A stretch of 55,233 nt of DNA from Oscillospiraceae bacterium. Its GTDB lineage: Bacteria > Bacillota > Clostridia > Oscillospirales > SIG530. The position numbers and the translations under genes are program-made. The notes under the pieces are model-generated. The model was not told the DNA's origin. It ran no database searches and saw only the letters and a list, made by a program, of their open reading frames with translations. Below, piece after piece: positions 4,993 through 55,233 of this stretch (positions are counted from its first letter, which is position 1; each line of letters starts with the position of its first letter). Location: contig SVND01000008.1 of the NCBI GenBank assembly GCA_015067075.1, positions 1 through 55,233 of the forward strand, in the 5' to 3' direction.

Positions 4993-6066
4993 TCAGTATT
5001 CGTATATTTTCACCATACCCTCATGACCGCTTCTAAATTCCGACACATAATGTACCAGTAAAAAATCTTCTGACACAAAACACGAGTCTATATTCGGTAT
5101 AGGCTGTGAATAAATTATTTTACCGCCATTTATTTGAATATCTTTTTCGACAATATCACTTCCATCCACACTTAAAACTTTCTTGCCTTCAAGCGTATAC
5201 ACATCTACTCTTTTTTCAAACACAGCGAAAATTCCGTTTTCATTCACATAAATCTTCTTCATTTGCGACACATCAAGAATTTTTTCATACTCGGAAAAAT
5301 TAACATCTGTACGTATAAGAGCTTTATTCGCATTCACATACCACAGCTTTTCATCTGCGAAAAAAAGTGAATTTTCAGACAACTTATCCATGTTTATTTC
5401 ATATTTTTCTTGACCGCTTTCCAAACAAACAAGCTTTCCGCCGCTTTCATCGCTTAAAGTCACGTATACTCGCCTTTCGTTTGTTATGATATTCGTTATA
5501 CGCATATCTTTTCTGTCAAGTATAGGAGTCTGCTCACCATTTTCTTTCACACTGTAAACAGTTCCTTCACCGCCTACCGCATAAATCACATTTTCTCCCT
5601 GCATACACATAAAATATGCAGGACTATGAAGCTGTTTTATGATGCTCACTTCTCCGCTTTCATCTATGCTAACTATGCAAATATTTTCGCCCATCTGCGC
5701 ACAGCAGTAAATCGTGTTATTATATGAGTTCAACGTCGTTGGATATACTTCTTCCAAAAGCTTTTCTCCGGCTTTCGCCATCATTTGCATACTGTCCGCT
5801 GAAAGCCTTGATGTATCATTTCCAAACGGCGTGTCACTGTTTATTTTGTACATGTCACCTTTGTCCACATCGGTCTTCAGTATCATATAAAGCTTCTCAC
5901 CGTTATAAAGTAAACTTCCGTTTGCAAATTCTTTCGACTTATATACGCAGTTTTCTTCCGTTTTACCACTCGGAATATGCTCTGTTTCCTTTATTTTATA
6001 TTCCTTTGCGCATGCTGAAAGTAATAATAAGAACAATATTGCAAGAATTGTCCACTTCTTTACCAT
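4993..6066 (-). CDS. Lipoprotein of unknown function, beta-strand repeats
   Basis: The 357-residue product opens with a lipoprotein signal peptide whose lipobox (LLSAC) puts the lipidated cysteine at residue 19. The mature part consists of repeated short segments of the type 'IYxVxENG' and 'LVCLESG', which looks like a beta-propeller or WD-like sensor fold, but no family is recognised. The ATG at 6066 is chosen because a GAGGTG ribosome site lies just upstream; the frame extends ten codons further without one. No enzyme motif is visible. No clear terminator lies between its stop and the T-box promoter. Confidence 0.65.
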   Translation of the reverse strand: MVKKWTILAILFLLLLSACAKEYKIKETEHIPSGKTEENCVYKSKEFANGSLLYNGEKLYMILKTDVDKGDMYKINSDTPFGNDTSRLSADSMQMMAKAGEKLLEEVYPTTLNSYNNTIYCCAQMGENICIVSIDESGEVSIIKQLHSPAYFMCMQGENVIYAVGGEGTVYSVKENGEQTPILDRKDMRITNIITNERRVYVTLSDESGGKLVCLESGQEKYEINMDKLSENSLFFADEKLWYVNANKALIRTDVNFSEYEKILDVSQMKKIYVNENGIFAVFEKRVDVYTLEGKKVLSVDGSDIVEKDIQINGGKIIYSQPIPNIDSCFVSEDFLLVHYVSEFRSGHEGMVKIYEY

Positions 6067-6218: not shown

Positions 6219-6560
6219 TTAATATTCGTTATTGTTTATATATCCTGTACATTTTCCTGTAGACGGCCATGTTGTCGTACCACTAATATACTCACACAAG
6301 TTAAAGCTAGGAGCATCTTCTACATTTACATTTGCAGAAAGTTCACAATAACCGACTTCGCCAGAAAACTGCGTATATCCTGATGCCGAATCTTTAATAC
6401 AATCGGTAGCAAAAAAATTATCCGACGATGCAGTTACATCGGCGTGAGCAATTCGTGCAACAACATTTGGATGTATGGTACTGATTCTAAATTTCCCCGA
6501 AACGTAATACGAAGAATTCACATCACAACAACTAACGAAACATGTTTGTTGTGCTGGCAA
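6219..6560 (-). CDS. Hypothetical small Cys-containing protein
   Basis: A 113-codon frame with six cysteines, no recognisable domain and no signal peptide. The only usable start in frame is TTG at 6560, and the GAAGGAG site upstream is about 14 bp away, too far to be convincing. A consensus promoter (6670-6698) points at it. The frame stays open for about a dozen codons upstream of the TTG, so the true start may be a non-standard codon, or this may be the tail of a decayed gene. Local sequence is more AT-rich than the neighbours. Function unknown. Confidence 0.35.
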   Translation of the reverse strand: MPAQQTCFVSCCDVNSSYYVSGKFRISTIHPNVVARIAHADVTASSDNFFATDCIKDSASGYTQFSGEVGYCELSANVNVEDAPSFNLCEYISGTTTWPSTGKCTGYINNNEY

Positions 6561-49243: not shown

Positions 49244-51055
49244 TTATTTTACCTTTTCACACTCTAAAAGCACTACCGCATGATGGTCAAGATACGCATC
49301 TATCGTATAATATCCATCTACCGCATCCTCAGGTGTAAGCGTTACCGTTACAGGCTTAAGCCTTGCAAGCTCATAGTAATAATCATACTCCGCGCGGAAA
49401 CGTTTTAGCGCCGCCGAGTCACCTATGGTATTAAGCGACGCAGTATAATCGCTGTCCTTAGACCATGCAAAATGGTAATCCTGAATATTTAAAAACTTTT
49501 CTCTTTCTCTTTGGAAATCGTCAAAATAATTGGAATTATCATCAACCGTCCAATTAGTTACCGTAACGCCTTCAGGGAAGTAGCTTACAGGTATTTTAGC
49601 CGTTATCCATTCGTCATTTGTGGCTATCATATACTCATTAAAGTTATACGCCATGAAATACAGTTTTTCCTCATCCTCGTTATACGCCGAAAATCCGTCG
49701 ATCTCATCACCAAGCGTTCCCTTTCCCGCTATATCGACAGACGTAAGCTTAGAGCCAACCATTTTGTAGAAAAGGTTTGCAACGTGCATCGTTACATTGG
49801 GAAGCCCCTCCCATATACCTTCGCTTGTATAGCACCACGCAGAAAAGTATGCTATATCTTCTTCGATCATGGTTTTTATAGTCTTTGCATCATAAGCCGC
49901 TTGGAAAGTATATCCAACTGTTCGTGCCGTAAGATCCTTTCCGTCCGTTCCGACGAGAAATCTTCCTTCGTCAACACCGTATTTCAGATTAGTAAGTCCG
50001 ACGGAAAGCGCCGCATCACGAAGATGGTTGATAGTTTTTGCAAGTGTAAACTTGCTGTAATTTCCGGGAGCATGGTCATAGAATGAGGCGCTTATAAACG
50101 TGATCCTCGTTCCTATTTCGCCCGTTTTATAGTTCGTACCGTTTGCGCAGTGATATATAAACTCGCGTTCATCCCAAAGTCCCTCAGAAACAGCCATGGC
50201 GTGAGCGCCGACCTCAATATCCTCGCAGATCGCATCCTGAAGCGCCGCTACGGTGTAATCGTACATTTTGCAAAAAGCATCGCGGCTTTTTACGGGGTCT
50301 CTGTCCAAATGAAACCAATCAGCATTTTCAAACTCCGTCAAACATCCCCATCGCCACGTTTTCACTTCCTCAAGCCCGAACTGCTCAACGAGAGCTTTTG
50401 CTATATTATAAATATAATCATAGTATGCGTCGTAATTTTCAGGCGGTCTTGTATTAACACCGAATCCTCCGTATTCACCCTTGCCCGAATACTTTACAGG
50501 CACAGCTCCTGTCTTTATATAAGGCTTAAGTCCCTGCCGCACGACCTTTTTGCAAGCGTTTATCAGCTTATCAAATTTATAATCGTCCAGCGTTTCAAGG
50601 TCCGAAACACTCACGAACAGATCATGGTTAAGTCCTCCGCCCGTTCCTGTCATGAAATGTATGTACTCCGCAAAGGGAAGCTTTTCCGAAAAATACGTTT
50701 CTGATACATCCACAGGATACCTTGTAGCCCAATCCTCAAGATAATTCCAGAGATTTATGTCGCTGACCTTGTTCGTTATTACCTTTCCGTCCGCATCCTC
50801 ACCTATTGTGAAAACGACATCTGTTTTTTCAGGCGGTGTGGGAATCGGTGTATCAGTCGTTCGTATCCACGGCTCAGGCGTGGGCGTCGGAGACGAAGTA
50901 GGTCTTTCCGTCTTTGTCGGTGTTACCTGCTCCGCCACGGTCGGCGTCGGTGTTTCTTGCGGCGTTGCGCCGTTTCCACCGCATCCTACAGCGATCGCAA
51001 GCAACATCAGTACAAGCATCAACGCTGTTAAACGTATTTTTTTCATCGTCATCAT
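49244..51055 (-). CDS. Surface lipoprotein, GH39-like putative glycosidase
   Basis: The 603-residue product has a lipoprotein signal peptide (lipobox IAVGC) and a TPTP tether to about residue 65. The body resembles the TIM barrel of GH39-type beta-xylosidases: WRWGCLTEFENADW, where the glutamate fits the acid/base position, and KYGVDEGRFL, where the glutamate fits the nucleophile. A beta-rich C-terminal part follows. It would act on xylan or related glycans at the cell surface. Start at the ATG behind GAAAGGA; another ATG three codons later is equally possible. Confidence 0.65.
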   Translation of the reverse strand: MMTMKKIRLTALMLVLMLLAIAVGCGGNGATPQETPTPTVAEQVTPTKTERPTSSPTPTPEPWIRTTDTPIPTPPEKTDVVFTIGEDADGKVITNKVSDINLWNYLEDWATRYPVDVSETYFSEKLPFAEYIHFMTGTGGGLNHDLFVSVSDLETLDDYKFDKLINACKKVVRQGLKPYIKTGAVPVKYSGKGEYGGFGVNTRPPENYDAYYDYIYNIAKALVEQFGLEEVKTWRWGCLTEFENADWFHLDRDPVKSRDAFCKMYDYTVAALQDAICEDIEVGAHAMAVSEGLWDEREFIYHCANGTNYKTGEIGTRITFISASFYDHAPGNYSKFTLAKTINHLRDAALSVGLTNLKYGVDEGRFLVGTDGKDLTARTVGYTFQAAYDAKTIKTMIEEDIAYFSAWCYTSEGIWEGLPNVTMHVANLFYKMVGSKLTSVDIAGKGTLGDEIDGFSAYNEDEEKLYFMAYNFNEYMIATNDEWITAKIPVSYFPEGVTVTNWTVDDNSNYFDDFQREREKFLNIQDYHFAWSKDSDYTASLNTIGDSAALKRFRAEYDYYYELARLKPVTVTLTPEDAVDGYYTIDAYLDHHAVVLLECEKVK

Positions 51056-51087
51056 AGTTCCTTTCAATATTTCTTTTTGTTTCTATA

Positions 51088-51116
51088 ATTATATATTATT
51101 TTTTATAGAAAATCAA
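51088..51116 (-). promoter_or_regulatory. Promoter of the GH39-like lipoprotein
   Basis: On the minus strand TTGATT (51111-51116), 17-bp spacer and TATAAT (51088-51093). The remaining sequence up to 51380 is AT-rich with no clear feature except a weak -10-like TAAAAT region near 51345 for the recombinase. Confidence 0.65.
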
Positions 51117-51380
51117 CACATTGTTACTTAACGTCAAAAAACACATTATAATGCTCTCACTTCAAATGGCAGTTATAAAACCACTTAAACAAGCGTTATA
51201 TTGTCCGAAATTGATATACATCCCGCTTTATTTTTCACTCACCGCATCGTCCCTTTCAATTTTAATCCCTTAAATCTGAAATATTTCATGGTACAAAACT
51301 GCCTGTATCAAATATTTAGGAATTATTCGCAAAAATTTGGTAAAATAATAATATCAACAATCTAACGTAAGGAGATTTTT

Positions 51381-52223
51381 ATGAAAAAAAGAATACTTGA
51401 AATAAAGAAAATGCAAGCATTTGAATTGTATTTGAAAGAAGAGGAAAGAAGTGCTGCGACCATAGAAAAATATATGCGTGATATAAGATTTTTTGCTGAC
51501 TTTACAAGCACATCCGAAATATCAAAGCAAATTGTGTTGGAATACAAAAACAAACTCGGCGCTTCTTACGCAGTATCAAGTGCTAACTCTATGATTGCGG
51601 CATTAAACTCTTTTTTTCGTTTCTGTGGTTGGCACGACCTTTGTATAAAACAGTTTAAAGTGCAAAGACAAGCCTACTGTTCCGAAGAAAAAGAGCTCTC
51701 GCGCGCAGAATATCTACGATTGCTTAATGCAGCCAAAGCCAGGCATAACGAACGGCTCAATCTCATTATTCAAGCAATCTGTGGAACCGGTATCCGCGTA
51801 AGTGAACTGCAGTATATCACGGTTGAAGCATTGAAAAGGGGCGAAGCTGTTGTCAGCTGCAAGGGAAAAAACCGACGTATCTTCATTGTTCCCGAGCTAA
51901 AGAAAAAACTACTCCGTTATGTCAAAGAACAAAAAATCACATCTGGTGCTGTATTTGTTACAAGAAACGGCAACCCAATAAGCCGCAATAATATATGGAA
52001 GGAAATGAAGGCGTTGTGCAAACAGGCAAATGTATCGCCGAGCAAGGTTTTTCCTCATAATCTTCGCCATCTGTTCGCAAGAACCTTTTACGGTATAGAA
52101 AAAGACATTGCTAAGCTTGCAGATATACTTGGACACGCCAGCATAAATACCACTCGTATTTATATTGTTACTACCGGTGCAGAACACAAACGCAAGATGG
52201 CACATATGCATCTGATCGTATAA
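51381..52223 (+). CDS. Tyrosine recombinase, candidate DNA invertase of the adjacent switch
   Basis: The 280-residue product has an N-terminal SAM-like core-binding domain (about 12-95) and a complete catalytic domain: R139 in GTGIRVSEL, K163 in CKGKNRR, H226 and R229 in FPHNLRH, H252 in LGHAS and the nucleophile Y261 in TTRIY. It is short, like the invertases of phase-variable loci, and lacks any arm-binding domain. No excisionase, phage or conjugation gene is nearby. Its stop codon is 36 bp from a perfect inverted repeat, so its most likely job is to invert the segment between the repeats. AAGGAG precedes the start. Confidence 0.9.
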   Translation: MKKRILEIKKMQAFELYLKEEERSAATIEKYMRDIRFFADFTSTSEISKQIVLEYKNKLGASYAVSSANSMIAALNSFFRFCGWHDLCIKQFKVQRQAYCSEEKELSRAEYLRLLNAAKARHNERLNLIIQAICGTGIRVSELQYITVEALKRGEAVVSCKGKNRRIFIVPELKKKLLRYVKEQKITSGAVFVTRNGNPISRNNIWKEMKALCKQANVSPSKVFPHNLRHLFARTFYGIEKDIAKLADILGHASINTTRIYIVTTGAEHKRKMAHMHLIV

Positions 52224-52247
52224 AAAAAGCCCGACGCAGATGCGCCG
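52222..52247 (-). terminator. Terminator facing the invertible promoter
   Basis: On the minus strand a 7-bp stem with one G-U pair (52241-52247 with 52232-52238) is followed by seven Ts (52222-52228). It would stop transcripts from the promoter at 52315-52343 in the present orientation before they run antisense into the recombinase gene. Confidence 0.7.
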
Positions 52248-52259
52248 AGACCAACGGAA

Positions 52260-52281
52260 ACATAATGAGAGTTATGTGATA
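52260..52281 (+). repeat. Left inverted repeat of the invertible element
   Basis: A 22-bp sequence whose exact reverse complement occurs at 52495-52516 (22 of 22). Its first 18 bp form a recombinase-type site: half-site ACATAA, 6-bp centre TGAGAG, half-site TTATGT. The asymmetric centre gives direction, and opposite orientation of the two copies predicts inversion. The match ends sharply on both sides. Confidence 0.93.
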
Positions 52282-52314
52282 TTAAGTACTAATTATTTTT
52301 TATATACATAAAGC

Positions 52315-52343
52315 ATTATACCACAAAACCTGAATAAAAACAA
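52315..52343 (-). promoter_or_regulatory. Promoter inside the invertible segment, facing left
   Basis: On the minus strand TTGTTT (52338-52343), 17-bp spacer ending in TGTGG, and a perfect TATAAT (52315-52320). It is the only strong promoter in the segment. Confidence 0.8.
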
Positions 52344-52395
52344 GGCTTTTTTATTAATTTGTTTAATTTTATGTAAAAAATTGCATGATTAAAAC

Positions 52396-52439
52396 GCCTT
52401 TCGTACATTTTTCTTTAAAAATACGGCGAAAGGCTTTTT
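52396..52439 (+). terminator. Terminator inside the invertible segment
   Basis: GCCTTTCG (52396-52403) pairs with CGAAAGGC (52427-52434), followed by five Ts and further T-rich sequence. It blocks rightward read-through from the recombinase gene in the present orientation. Confidence 0.75.
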
Positions 52440-52494
52440 GTTGTGCCTTTTTTTCTTTTTATAAATGATGAGCCGGAGAAATATTTTTCTTTTT

Positions 52495-52516
52495 TATCAC
52501 ATAACTCTCATTATGT
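52495..52516 (-). repeat. Right inverted repeat of the invertible element
   Basis: Exact reverse complement of 52260-52281. It carries the same ACATAA/TTATGT half-sites with the 6-bp centre in the opposite direction. Confidence 0.93.
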
Positions 52517-52742
52517 AGTTTTTTATCTTTATAAACAAATATTACATTCTTAAATTTGTGTCCATAATGCAGAGAAACAAATGATTACTTAAACAGTTGT
52601 TTTGCTTGATAATAAATTTATTTTTGCTATCAAGGGAGCTTTCTGCGTTTGAATGTGTCAAGAAGTTCAAAGAGCTGTACAAAAAGGTTCTTTGAAGCTA
52701 TGGTGTCCTTATCTAAAATAAAAAATCAAGGAGGTTGAATCC
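52517..52742 (+). promoter_or_regulatory. Structured leader between the switch and the matrix operon
   Basis: This 226-bp non-coding stretch has no strong promoter of its own. It has two dyads: CTTGATA/TATCAAG around 52606-52634, and TTCAAAGA/TCTTTGAA (52666-52673 with 52689-52696). AAGGAGG at 52728-52734 is the ribosome site for the first operon gene. Its length suggests a second layer of control at RNA level in the ON state. No known riboswitch class is recognised. Confidence 0.5.
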
Positions 52743-53732
52743 GTGGCGAACACTCTTAAAAATATGAAAATAACTATAATTATCCTTGCCGTATTGCTTG
52801 GACTAAGTCTAGTTGCTTTGGCGAGCGTTATCATTTGCGGACAGCATGATCCGTCAAGTGGCACTACTGTCATTCCCGATAATTACATAGATCCAACAAG
52901 TAGCAGCGAATTAAATACAGGAACGCAGGTAATACATTTCCGTACAGGTTCCGTTCTGCTTTGTGCATCGGCTCCGACGGTCAATCTTTCCGCCAATTTT
53001 CCTATGATGGCACTTTCCAAAACAGTCTTTACTTCGGACAGCGCAAAGGAAACGTTTATTTTCATTTATAAAAACCACGCTGAAGACAGCGAACCGTTCA
53101 AATGTGTAAATATGTTTCCCGGCGACAGCGAAACAAATACCTATCTCGTAAAGGTATCCCATATAGGAATCGTTACAGTCCGTTTCCACGCAGATATACG
53201 GCCGGGCTACGAAAAGCTCTCCGAAGTTTTGAAATGCAAAATTGTTTTGCGCGGTGAGAACAAGGTCCTTTACGACGGACTTATGCGTGATATGCCTGAA
53301 AGCATCAATCACCGTATAGCTACAGTTTCCGGCAAAACAACCGAACTTATCTATGACATTACAGCCTATTTTGATAACAGCGTTGGTAACGAGTATATGA
53401 ACAAAGAACTCGTTGCAGACTTCCGCTGGTGGGTTGAGGAGATCAGCAGCGATCCAACTCCGACTCCCGGTGATATTACCGATCCCGATGATTCGAAAGA
53501 CCCTGAAGATACCACCGTTCCCGACGATCCGACTGAACCTGAAGAAACAAAGGCTCCTGACGGCTCTGATGAAGGCGAATTGATATATCCTCCGCCGACG
53601 GGCGATAATTCCCATTTCTGCATTTGGTTCTGGATCGCTATCTTCTCTCTTCTTTTAAATATCATCCTTCTTTGGCCAAAACGCCGCAGACATATCGACG
53701 AACAGGAGGATGAGAAAGCGAATGAGCATTAA
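52743..53732 (+). CDS. Membrane-anchored surface protein, TasA/CalY-like
   Basis: The 329-residue product starts at GTG 8 bp past AAGGAGG. It has an N-terminal hydrophobic segment (about 8-33), a beta-rich extracellular domain (about 65-235) with NMFPGDSETNTYLVKVSH, a pattern like the PGD segment of camelysin/TasA proteins, then an acidic Asp/Pro/Thr-rich spacer and a C-terminal membrane helix followed by basic residues. It would be displayed outside the membrane, perhaps as an anchor for fibres built from its neighbours. It overlaps the next gene by 11 bp. Assignment to the family is by pattern only. Confidence 0.65.
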   Translation: MANTLKNMKITIIILAVLLGLSLVALASVIICGQHDPSSGTTVIPDNYIDPTSSSELNTGTQVIHFRTGSVLLCASAPTVNLSANFPMMALSKTVFTSDSAKETFIFIYKNHAEDSEPFKCVNMFPGDSETNTYLVKVSHIGIVTVRFHADIRPGYEKLSEVLKCKIVLRGENKVLYDGLMRDMPESINHRIATVSGKTTELIYDITAYFDNSVGNEYMNKELVADFRWWVEEISSDPTPTPGDITDPDDSKDPEDTTVPDDPTEPEETKAPDGSDEGELIYPPPTGDNSHFCIWFWIAIFSLLLNIILLWPKRRRHIDEQEDEKANEH

Positions 53733-54270
53733 ACTAAACACAGCAAAGCGATTGACATTGAGCGTTGTTATCGCAATTTTCCTCGCTTGTGCCTTATGTA
53801 TTACGACCTACGCCCTGTTTTATGCCACCGTTACGGTGGAGGGCAACTATTTCAAAACAGGCATTGTCAGTATTGACCTCAACGGCGGTAAGCCCGTCAT
53901 CGAGGAACACGAATATCTCTTTGAACCTGGTATGACGGTTGAAAAACCGTTTTACATAAAAAATCAAAGCACCTGGGCAGTTTATTACAAAATATACTTT
54001 GACAATGTGGTGGGCGGTCTTGCCGACGTGTTGGAGATCACCGTCCTTGACGGTGACAAGGTTTTGTACAAAGGTACTGCAAACAATCTGACGCGGCAAA
54101 ATGTAATCGCCGCCGATGATATCCTCCTGGTTGGAGAAAAGCGTAATCTCACGCTTCGCTTCCATTATCCCGAGGACAGCGGAAACGCCTCGCAAAACTG
54201 GCAGCTTCGGTTTGATCTCTGTGCCGACGCGGTACAAGAGAAGAACAACCCCAACAAGGATTTTGATTAA
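53722..54270 (+). CDS. TasA/CalY (camelysin) family-like secreted protein
   Basis: A 182-residue protein with a hydrophobic signal segment (LTLSVVIAIFLACALCITTYALF) followed by ATVTVEGNYFKTGIVSIDL, close to the 'NxFxxGxxxI' start of mature TasA/CalY proteins. FEPGMTVEKPFYIKN matches the family's PGD-like strand, and the rest alternates beta strands. It is probably cleaved by the SipW-type peptidase encoded next and may form extracellular fibres or a surface coat. The ATG at 53722 is chosen over 53710, where the AGGAGG would touch the start codon. Confidence 0.78.
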   Translation: MSIKLNTAKRLTLSVVIAIFLACALCITTYALFYATVTVEGNYFKTGIVSIDLNGGKPVIEEHEYLFEPGMTVEKPFYIKNQSTWAVYYKIYFDNVVGGLADVLEITVLDGDKVLYKGTANNLTRQNVIAADDILLVGEKRNLTLRFHYPEDSGNASQNWQLRFDLCADAVQEKNNPNKDFD

Positions 54271-54287
54271 CGGAAAGGAGGCAGTTC

Positions 54288-54974
54288 ATGAAAAAAGCAT
54301 TAAACATCATATCCACCGTTCTTGTATGGGCGCTTGTAGTCGCTACGGTGGGAATGATGATATTTACCTTGATTTCTGTCAATACCTTTGACCAGGCAAA
54401 CAGAAGTGTTTTCGGATATAAATTTTTCATCGTCCGTTCTGACTCAATGAGTGCGACGGATTTTGATGCGGGTGATATTGTCTTTGTTAAAAACGTCGAC
54501 CCCGCTACCCTGCAAGTTGGTGACATTATCGCCTTTACCTCACAGAATCCGAACAATTTCGGTGATACCGTTACACACAAGATAAGAGAGATTACTACTG
54601 ATTACTATGGCGATCCGGCTTTTGTTACCTACGGTACAACGACAGACACAAACGACGAAACACTGGTTACATATCCTTATGTTCTCGGAAAATACACAGG
54701 CAAAATACCCAATATAGGCTCGTTTTTTCAGTTTTTAAAAACGACACCCGGTTATATTCTTTGTATTTTCGTTCCTTTTCTTCTGCTTATTCTGTATCAA
54801 GGATTTCAATGCGTTCAGCTGTTCCGCAGATACAAGAAGGAGCAAATGGAAGAGCTTCAAGCAGAGCGCGCAAAGATCGAGGAAGAACGCAGACAGTCAA
54901 TGGAAATGATGAAAGAGCTGCAGGCACTCAAGCAGCAGCTCGAGGCAAATGATGGGCAATCGTCCGAGCAGTAA
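54288..54974 (+). CDS. sipW: SipW-type signal peptidase I with C-terminal coiled coil
   Basis: The 228-residue product is an ER-type (Ser/His) signal peptidase: N-terminal membrane helix (about 6-30), the catalytic serine S53 in RSDSMS, H97 in VTHKIREI where bacterial type-P enzymes have lysine, and a second membrane helix at about 152-175. SipW enzymes process TasA-like matrix proteins. A charged coiled coil of about 50 residues (180-225) follows the second helix and is unusual for the family. GGAGG precedes the ATG. The gene sits between TasA-like genes, its expected substrates. Confidence 0.9.
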   Translation: MKKALNIISTVLVWALVVATVGMMIFTLISVNTFDQANRSVFGYKFFIVRSDSMSATDFDAGDIVFVKNVDPATLQVGDIIAFTSQNPNNFGDTVTHKIREITTDYYGDPAFVTYGTTTDTNDETLVTYPYVLGKYTGKIPNIGSFFQFLKTTPGYILCIFVPFLLLILYQGFQCVQLFRRYKKEQMEELQAERAKIEEERRQSMEMMKELQALKQQLEANDGQSSEQ

Positions 54975-55043
54975 GGTATAGGCAGCGAAAGGCTGTTTAT
55001 ATATATTCGTCTAACGAAAATCTAAAATAGGAGGTAAAACAAA

Positions 55044-55233
55044 ATGACGAATAGCAAAACCACTAAGAGAGCATTGTTTAGCAGTGTTGTGGCACTCCTT
55101 CTCTGCTTCACAATGCTTCTCGGAACTACGTTTGCGTGGTTCACAGATTCCGCTGCTTCCGGCAGCAACGTGATCACCGCAGGCAATCTTGACATTGTTG
55201 TTGAGTATACGCTTGACGGTACAACCTGGAAAG
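55044..55233 (+). CDS. SipW-dependent TasA-like protein, truncated by the window end
   Basis: The first 63 codons are visible. A SipW-type signal peptide (KRALFSSVVALLLCFTMLLG) is followed by TTFAWFTDSAASGSNVITAGNLDI, the diagnostic start of TasA/camelysin proteins, with T-F-A-W-F-T-D before the cleavage region. AGGAGGT precedes the ATG. It is the third TasA-like product of the operon and probably a major matrix or fibre subunit. Confidence 0.9.
   Translation, partial: MTNSKTTKRALFSSVVALLLCFTMLLGTTFAWFTDSAASGSNVITAGNLDIVVEYTLDGTTWK

Follow-up and report, generated by a model that had tools for sequence, protein, structure and literature searches.

A recombinase-adjacent invertible promoter as a predicted phase switch for a TasA/SipW-type surface-fibre operon in an Oscillospiraceae bacterium

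The window, by which we mean the whole stretch of 55,233 nucleotides that was analysed, is a contig (C14) of a 2.26-Mb Oscillospiraceae genome of 96% completeness. Towards its right-hand end, a plus-strand gene (51381-52223) encodes a 280-amino acid tyrosine recombinase of the XerD/XerA-like type, which is predicted to be a dedicated invertase. The protein matches the Pfam Phage_integrase model (PF00589, E=1e-26), its matches to the NCBIfam Xer models score under the cutoffs of those models, and the solved structures closest to it are XerA/XerD-type recombinases. The catalytic set of R139, K161, H226, R229, H252 and Y261 is intact, and is shared without change by 74 of 74 members of the family; the original prediction had spoken of a complete tyrosine recombinase, and all of its catalytic residues are indeed there. 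A genome-wide search found no second recombinase of this subfamily. The sole Rfam match, a weak SAM-V hit inside the recombinase gene that falls under the gathering score, was taken as noise. Divergent from the recombinase, the minus-strand gene at 49244-51067 encodes a lipoprotein-like protein of 607 amino acids with a glycosyl hydrolase 39 match.

The left recombination site (52260-52281, plus strand) begins 36 bp past the end of the recombinase gene at 52223, and comprises the core ACATAA-TGAGAG-TTATGT plus GATA. The right site (52495-52516, minus strand) is an exact inverted copy of it, the 6-nt spacer included, and the two delimit an invertible segment of 257 bp, counting the sites (52260-52516). 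The inverted repeat is 22 nt long with 100% complementarity, and its arms are separated by 213 nt, precisely as had been claimed. Among perfect inverted repeats with a gap of 50-1000 nt, 300 Markov shuffles of 50800-55233 gave none longer than 15 nt, and 60 shuffles of the whole window none longer than 16 nt; the length of the 22-bp repeat is far beyond chance. Another perfect inverted repeat in the window, of 16 bp (5941-5956 and 6363-6378, gap 406 bp), has a length that was reached in two of the 60 whole-window shuffles. In the core site of a tyrosine recombinase, a short crossover spacer separates two binding elements in inverted orientation, and each arm of the repeat, being in itself an ACATAA-N6-TTATGT dyad, matches this expectation. 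The dyad pattern occurs twice in the genome, both times at the switch, and in six of seven genomes of relatives core sites are confined to the switch. A solitary core site with another spacer, ACATAATGAGAATTATGT, is found apart from the switch in the genome of locus L114 (G043:C37:24222-24239). Extra direct copies of the site, one or two in number and approximately 31-62 bp apart, are present in L025, L026, L027, L032, L038 and L039; they lie approximately 30-370 bp past the recombinase, on the left side in some loci and on the right in others, and are possibly alternative segment ends or the remains of unequal exchange.

The best sigma-70 promoter of the segment, and the sole strong one there, is on the minus strand at 52315-52343 (TTGTTT-17-TGGTATAAT), with the -35 element at 52338-52343 and the -10 element, extended as (TGG)TATAAT, at 52315-52320. 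Although it is unlisted under the stricter rule of the promoter scan, we accepted it because its position is fixed and its sequence conserved in relatives. As assembled, it is directed leftward, at the recombinase, with the operon behind it, and the assembled orientation is therefore OFF. The original prediction was right to place a strong promoter inside the segment, but this minus-strand promoter would not drive the operon in the assembled state. Once the segment is inverted, the promoter would fall, by computation, at 52433-52461 and face the operon. Upstream of the promoter, and also inside the segment, is a bidirectional terminator hairpin with flanking A and T tracts (52383-52446), which folds at -22.7 kcal/mol (z -5.4) in the rightward, plus-strand sense and at -16.7 kcal/mol (z -2.7) in the leftward, minus-strand sense. 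Like the promoter it is conserved in relatives, and it would shield the operon from recombinase read-through. A leftward intrinsic terminator (52230-52249, minus strand; -13.7 kcal/mol, z -2.9) lies between the recombinase stop codon and the left site, and a similar hairpin and T tract precede the left site in 34 of 57 related loci, compared with approximately 2.5 expected from shuffles. This terminator likely ends OFF-state promoter transcripts short of the recombinase gene, which they would otherwise enter in antisense.

Four genes on the same strand follow the segment, the fourth of them interrupted by the contig end at 55233. The first (52743-53732, plus strand) encodes a wall-anchored TasA-like surface protein of 329 amino acids with an N-terminal membrane segment, a TasA-like jelly-roll domain and a C-terminal PPPTGD-hydrophobic-KRRR wall-anchor signal. 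Its homologue in L069 matches Gram_pos_anchor (PF00746), and its structural model, of low confidence (pLDDT 57), matches the fold of TasA (5of2/5of1) weakly, with further jelly rolls among the matches. The second (53710-54270, plus strand; 186 amino acids) encodes a TasA/camelysin-like secreted protein, whose L024 homologue matches PF12389 with 42 bits, and whose model, also of low confidence (mean pLDDT 69), has B. subtilis TasA as its top PDB fold match (5of2, E=5.9e-5). A sequence search of the PDB with the profile of this second protein found no real relative, and neither of the two proteins has a direct Pfam match. The third gene (54288-54974, plus strand; 228 amino acids) encodes an archaeal-type signal peptidase I of the SipW type, with 67.9 bits to TIGR02228 (cutoff 51.85). 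Its match to the Bacillus SipW equivalog model NF046067 (E=4e-23) is under the cutoff, and we therefore describe it as SipW-type and not as a Bacillus SipW orthologue; it is the sole SipW-type peptidase found in the genome. From the fourth gene (55044-55232, plus strand) the N-terminal 63 amino acids of a SipW-dependent TasA/camelysin-type protein can be read, with a camelysin domain (PF12389, 26.1 bits, above cutoff) and a SipW-dependent signal peptide (TIGR04088 cognate_SipW, 23.1 bits against a cutoff of 19). A TasA/SipW (BsaA-type) fibre operon is recognised by a SipW-type signal peptidase and by SipW-dependent signal peptides together with camelysin/TasA domains; the first is encoded here at 54288, and the second is found by models in the 55044 protein and by homologue and fold in the 53710 protein. 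The expected operon of three TasA-like proteins (52743, 53710 and 55044) with a SipW peptidase is present. The window proteins score below the TasA or BsaA equivalog models, the last TasA-type gene being incomplete at the contig end, and proteins of relatives give weak matches to NF046066 and TIGR04090. Homology suggests a biofilm-matrix or fibre role for the operon products.

What do related loci say about inversion? We gathered 80 loci with related recombinases, a recombinase match being the entry criterion, so that finding the recombinase next to the segment is in part built into the sample. Approximately 60 of the 80 have an inverted-repeat segment, mostly of 240-310 bp and mostly starting 5-45 bp (rarely approximately 100 bp) after the recombinase. 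The original prediction had proposed a search of related genomes for the reverse orientation, and there homologous segments occupy the same position in either orientation. The segments of L038 and L042 agree at 241 of 243 bases when one is flipped and at 107 of 158 when it is not. Those of L027 and L032 agree at 190 of 234 bases flipped, between colinear flanks (recombinase 83% and right flank 88% identical), and those of L045 and L067 at 185 of 240 bases flipped, where the right flanks share 94-95% identity. The segment of the window likewise aligns to that of L024 in the flipped sense. No second species of the same family carrying this locus was present among the genomes searched. The 6-nt spacers of the left and right core sites are identical in the inverted sense in 51 of the 51 loci that have both, and yet 31 distinct left-site spacers occur among those loci. 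In the recombinase tree the window falls into a clade of 20 (SH-aLRT 98), in which nine ON and nine OFF orientations were called. These calls, which compare different species, combine the promoter with the aligned segment; at several loci the promoter scan was ambiguous, and the segment alignment or the better-placed promoter was used or the locus omitted. Orientation in the clade has no phylogenetic signal, with seven changes on the tree compared with 6.35 for random labels. Flipped homologues, spacer identity and phylogenetically random orientation together support real inversion. Among the features by which a tyrosine-recombinase-type invertible-promoter switch is recognised, we find inverted repeats around a promoter, a nearby recombinase with a complete R-K-H-R-H-Y set, spacers that are the same within a pair and different between loci, and, between species, both orientations at a homologous locus.

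In the light of these sites, promoter, terminators and flipped homologous segments, all of which are established by comparing sequences, we consider the locus to be a self-contained phase-variation switch in which a recombinase-inverted promoter would control the TasA/SipW operon, and put the probability of this reading at roughly 87%. The central claim of the original prediction is thereby strongly supported by comparison, through the flipped homologues and the spacer rule, and its description of the switch as self-contained agrees with a genome that has two core sites, one recombinase of the subfamily and one SipW. The recombinase would bind the ACATAA/TTATGT arms of both inverted sites, and strand exchange across the identical 6-nt spacer would invert the 257-bp segment, a process that is probably ongoing in this strain. 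In the OFF state, the internal promoter would fire leftward and be halted by the terminator at 52230-52249, while the bidirectional hairpin would block recombinase read-through, leaving the operon silent. In the ON state, the promoter at 52433-52461 would read rightward through the right site and the leader of approximately 226 bp into the operon, transcribing in order the wall-anchored TasA-like protein, the TasA-like protein, SipW and the further TasA-type protein. Operon expression would then depend on the segment promoter, and hence on orientation, and the predicted outcome is a subpopulation with SipW-processed surface fibres, with a possible biofilm phenotype.

Would the operon truly be switched? 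Inversion could be real and yet only modulate the operon, if it were also served by another promoter in the leader (52517-52742), a reading that we regard as unlikely. The leader is long (226 nt) with a possible hairpin, and just right of the segment is a weak promoter-like match (52541-52568, 9 of 12 positions) that, if it works, would leave the operon not fully OFF. Promoter-like matches are nevertheless scarcer in this stretch than in shuffles (two against a mean of 2.9), the folding of the leader is unremarkable (z -1.0), and the bidirectional and leftward exit terminators make sense under strict ON/OFF control. It is very improbable that another recombinase, such as XerC/XerD, inverts the segment in trans while the adjacent gene serves another function. 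Trans-acting invertases are known, such as RecV of C. difficile (PMC5903667), and the genome has at least one other tyrosine recombinase (G000:C31). Against this, a subfamily recombinase adjoins the segment in every locus examined, an argument limited by the choice of loci through their recombinases, and site arms are conserved throughout the subfamily, as are all the catalytic residues; the adjacent recombinase is the predicted catalyst of inversion. We give similarly little credence to a relic in which recombinase or sites are inactive and the arrangement is fixed OFF: a single orientation is known for this species and one relative (L078) has a frameshifted recombinase, but here the two 22-bp arms have not diverged at all, the window's recombinase is intact, and the orientations seen in relatives are scattered at random over the phylogeny. 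An origin of the repeat as the end of a mobile element or as a palindrome arisen by chance is practically negligible as an explanation, for although integrases also belong to the recombinase family, no element gene lies between the arms, the shuffles rule out a chance palindrome, and the conserved cassette geometry, the flipped homologues and the spacer rule refute both.

The preferred reading, a phase-variation switch governing a fibre operon, is reminiscent of the fim switch of E. coli (FimB/FimE, type 1 fimbriae), where a recombinase gene likewise sits beside an invertible promoter that precedes an operon for surface fibres. Unlike the fim switch, the window combines an unrelated type of fibre with a single recombinase, where fim has two, and its sites of 18-22 bp have a 6-nt spacer. 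In biofilms of Gram-positive bacteria, TasA-type fibres are the matrix scaffold, and regulators are usually held responsible for their patchy expression. As in C. perfringens sipW-bsaA and B. subtilis tapA-sipW-tasA, SipW is encoded here with TasA-type filament proteins; unlike those operons, that of the window has the gene for a wall-anchored TasA-like protein in first place, and none of its products was recognised as TapA. Expression of C. perfringens sipW-bsaA is bimodal through the BsaRS two-component system and PilA2, and DNA inversion is unreported for it (PMC7395162). The C. difficile cwpV, flgB and cmrRST switches resemble the window in combining a tyrosine recombinase and inverted repeats with ON/OFF control of surface structures in a member of the class Clostridia (PMC2784873, PMC7446863, PMC6837544), but in C. 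difficile one RecV serves several distant switches (PMC5903667), whereas the window has an adjacent recombinase and the single site pair of its genome. A study of the hCom2 gut community describes invertons of Clostridia that have a tyrosine recombinase as neighbour (inverton group 139 and invertase group 35), and reports that orientation shifts with growth condition, including surface attachment (PMC11892184). The intergenic invertible segments of group 139, of approximately 250 bp with an adjacent tyrosine recombinase, are like that of the window; as targets, however, the text of that study names neither TasA, SipW or camelysin nor a signal peptidase (PMC11892184). A search through the text of a collection of open-access papers found none that joins TasA or SipW with DNA inversion, in line with the original statement, whose author knew of no described case. 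Flip switches are well known; in that collection, we found no prior description of one with this fibre-operon target.

Among the 16 members of the window's recombinase clade with sufficient downstream sequence, 14 precede genes for a SipW peptidase, a SipW-type secreted protein or both; of the exceptions, L031 precedes an LRR-type lipoprotein gene and L041 an unrelated gene. TasA-type proteins are also found downstream outside the clade, in L039, L060 and L069, and at the other loci of the family large secreted proteins predominate (LRR, collagen-like, SLH, dockerin/cohesin and Ig-like). These varied, mainly surface, targets outside the clade therefore give the arrangement the look of a portable switch cassette, the parts of which appear to be a dedicated invertase, a 250-300-bp invertible promoter with an internal bidirectional terminator, and a leftward exit terminator. 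We lean towards the view that this cassette has spread through gut Clostridia before many surface and other genes, and that one lineage of it makes SipW/TasA-type matrix-fibre operons phase-variable in such bacteria, many of which come from ruminants. Ahead of an operon of this type, a heritable DNA flip would turn the production of matrix in gut Clostridia into a decision that each lineage takes stochastically and can reverse. Orientation could be read from metagenomic reads by direct counting, and the recombinase with its ACATAA-N6-TTATGT pair would be a simple signature by which surface genes under phase variation could be sought in uncultured Clostridia.

The related loci also vary in other ways. 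In L024 (7284-7901), and in the same place in L025, L027, L032, L033, L039 and L042, the gene that comes first past the segment encodes a TetR-like regulator; its Pfam match in these relatives is just under the cutoff, and it is absent from the window. L078 (6001-12833) has the cassette in the ON orientation ahead of a nonribosomal peptide synthetase of 1909 amino acids, and the frameshifted recombinase of this locus has C in place of the second catalytic arginine, which may represent a locked switch or a sequencing error. In L077 (5319-8862) the cassette is ahead of a metallophosphoesterase and SMC/AAA-type ATPase pair that resembles an SbcCD-like nuclease. The cassette of L053 (7149-9776) precedes a gene for a protein with a TIR domain plus TPR, possibly a phase-variable defence gene.
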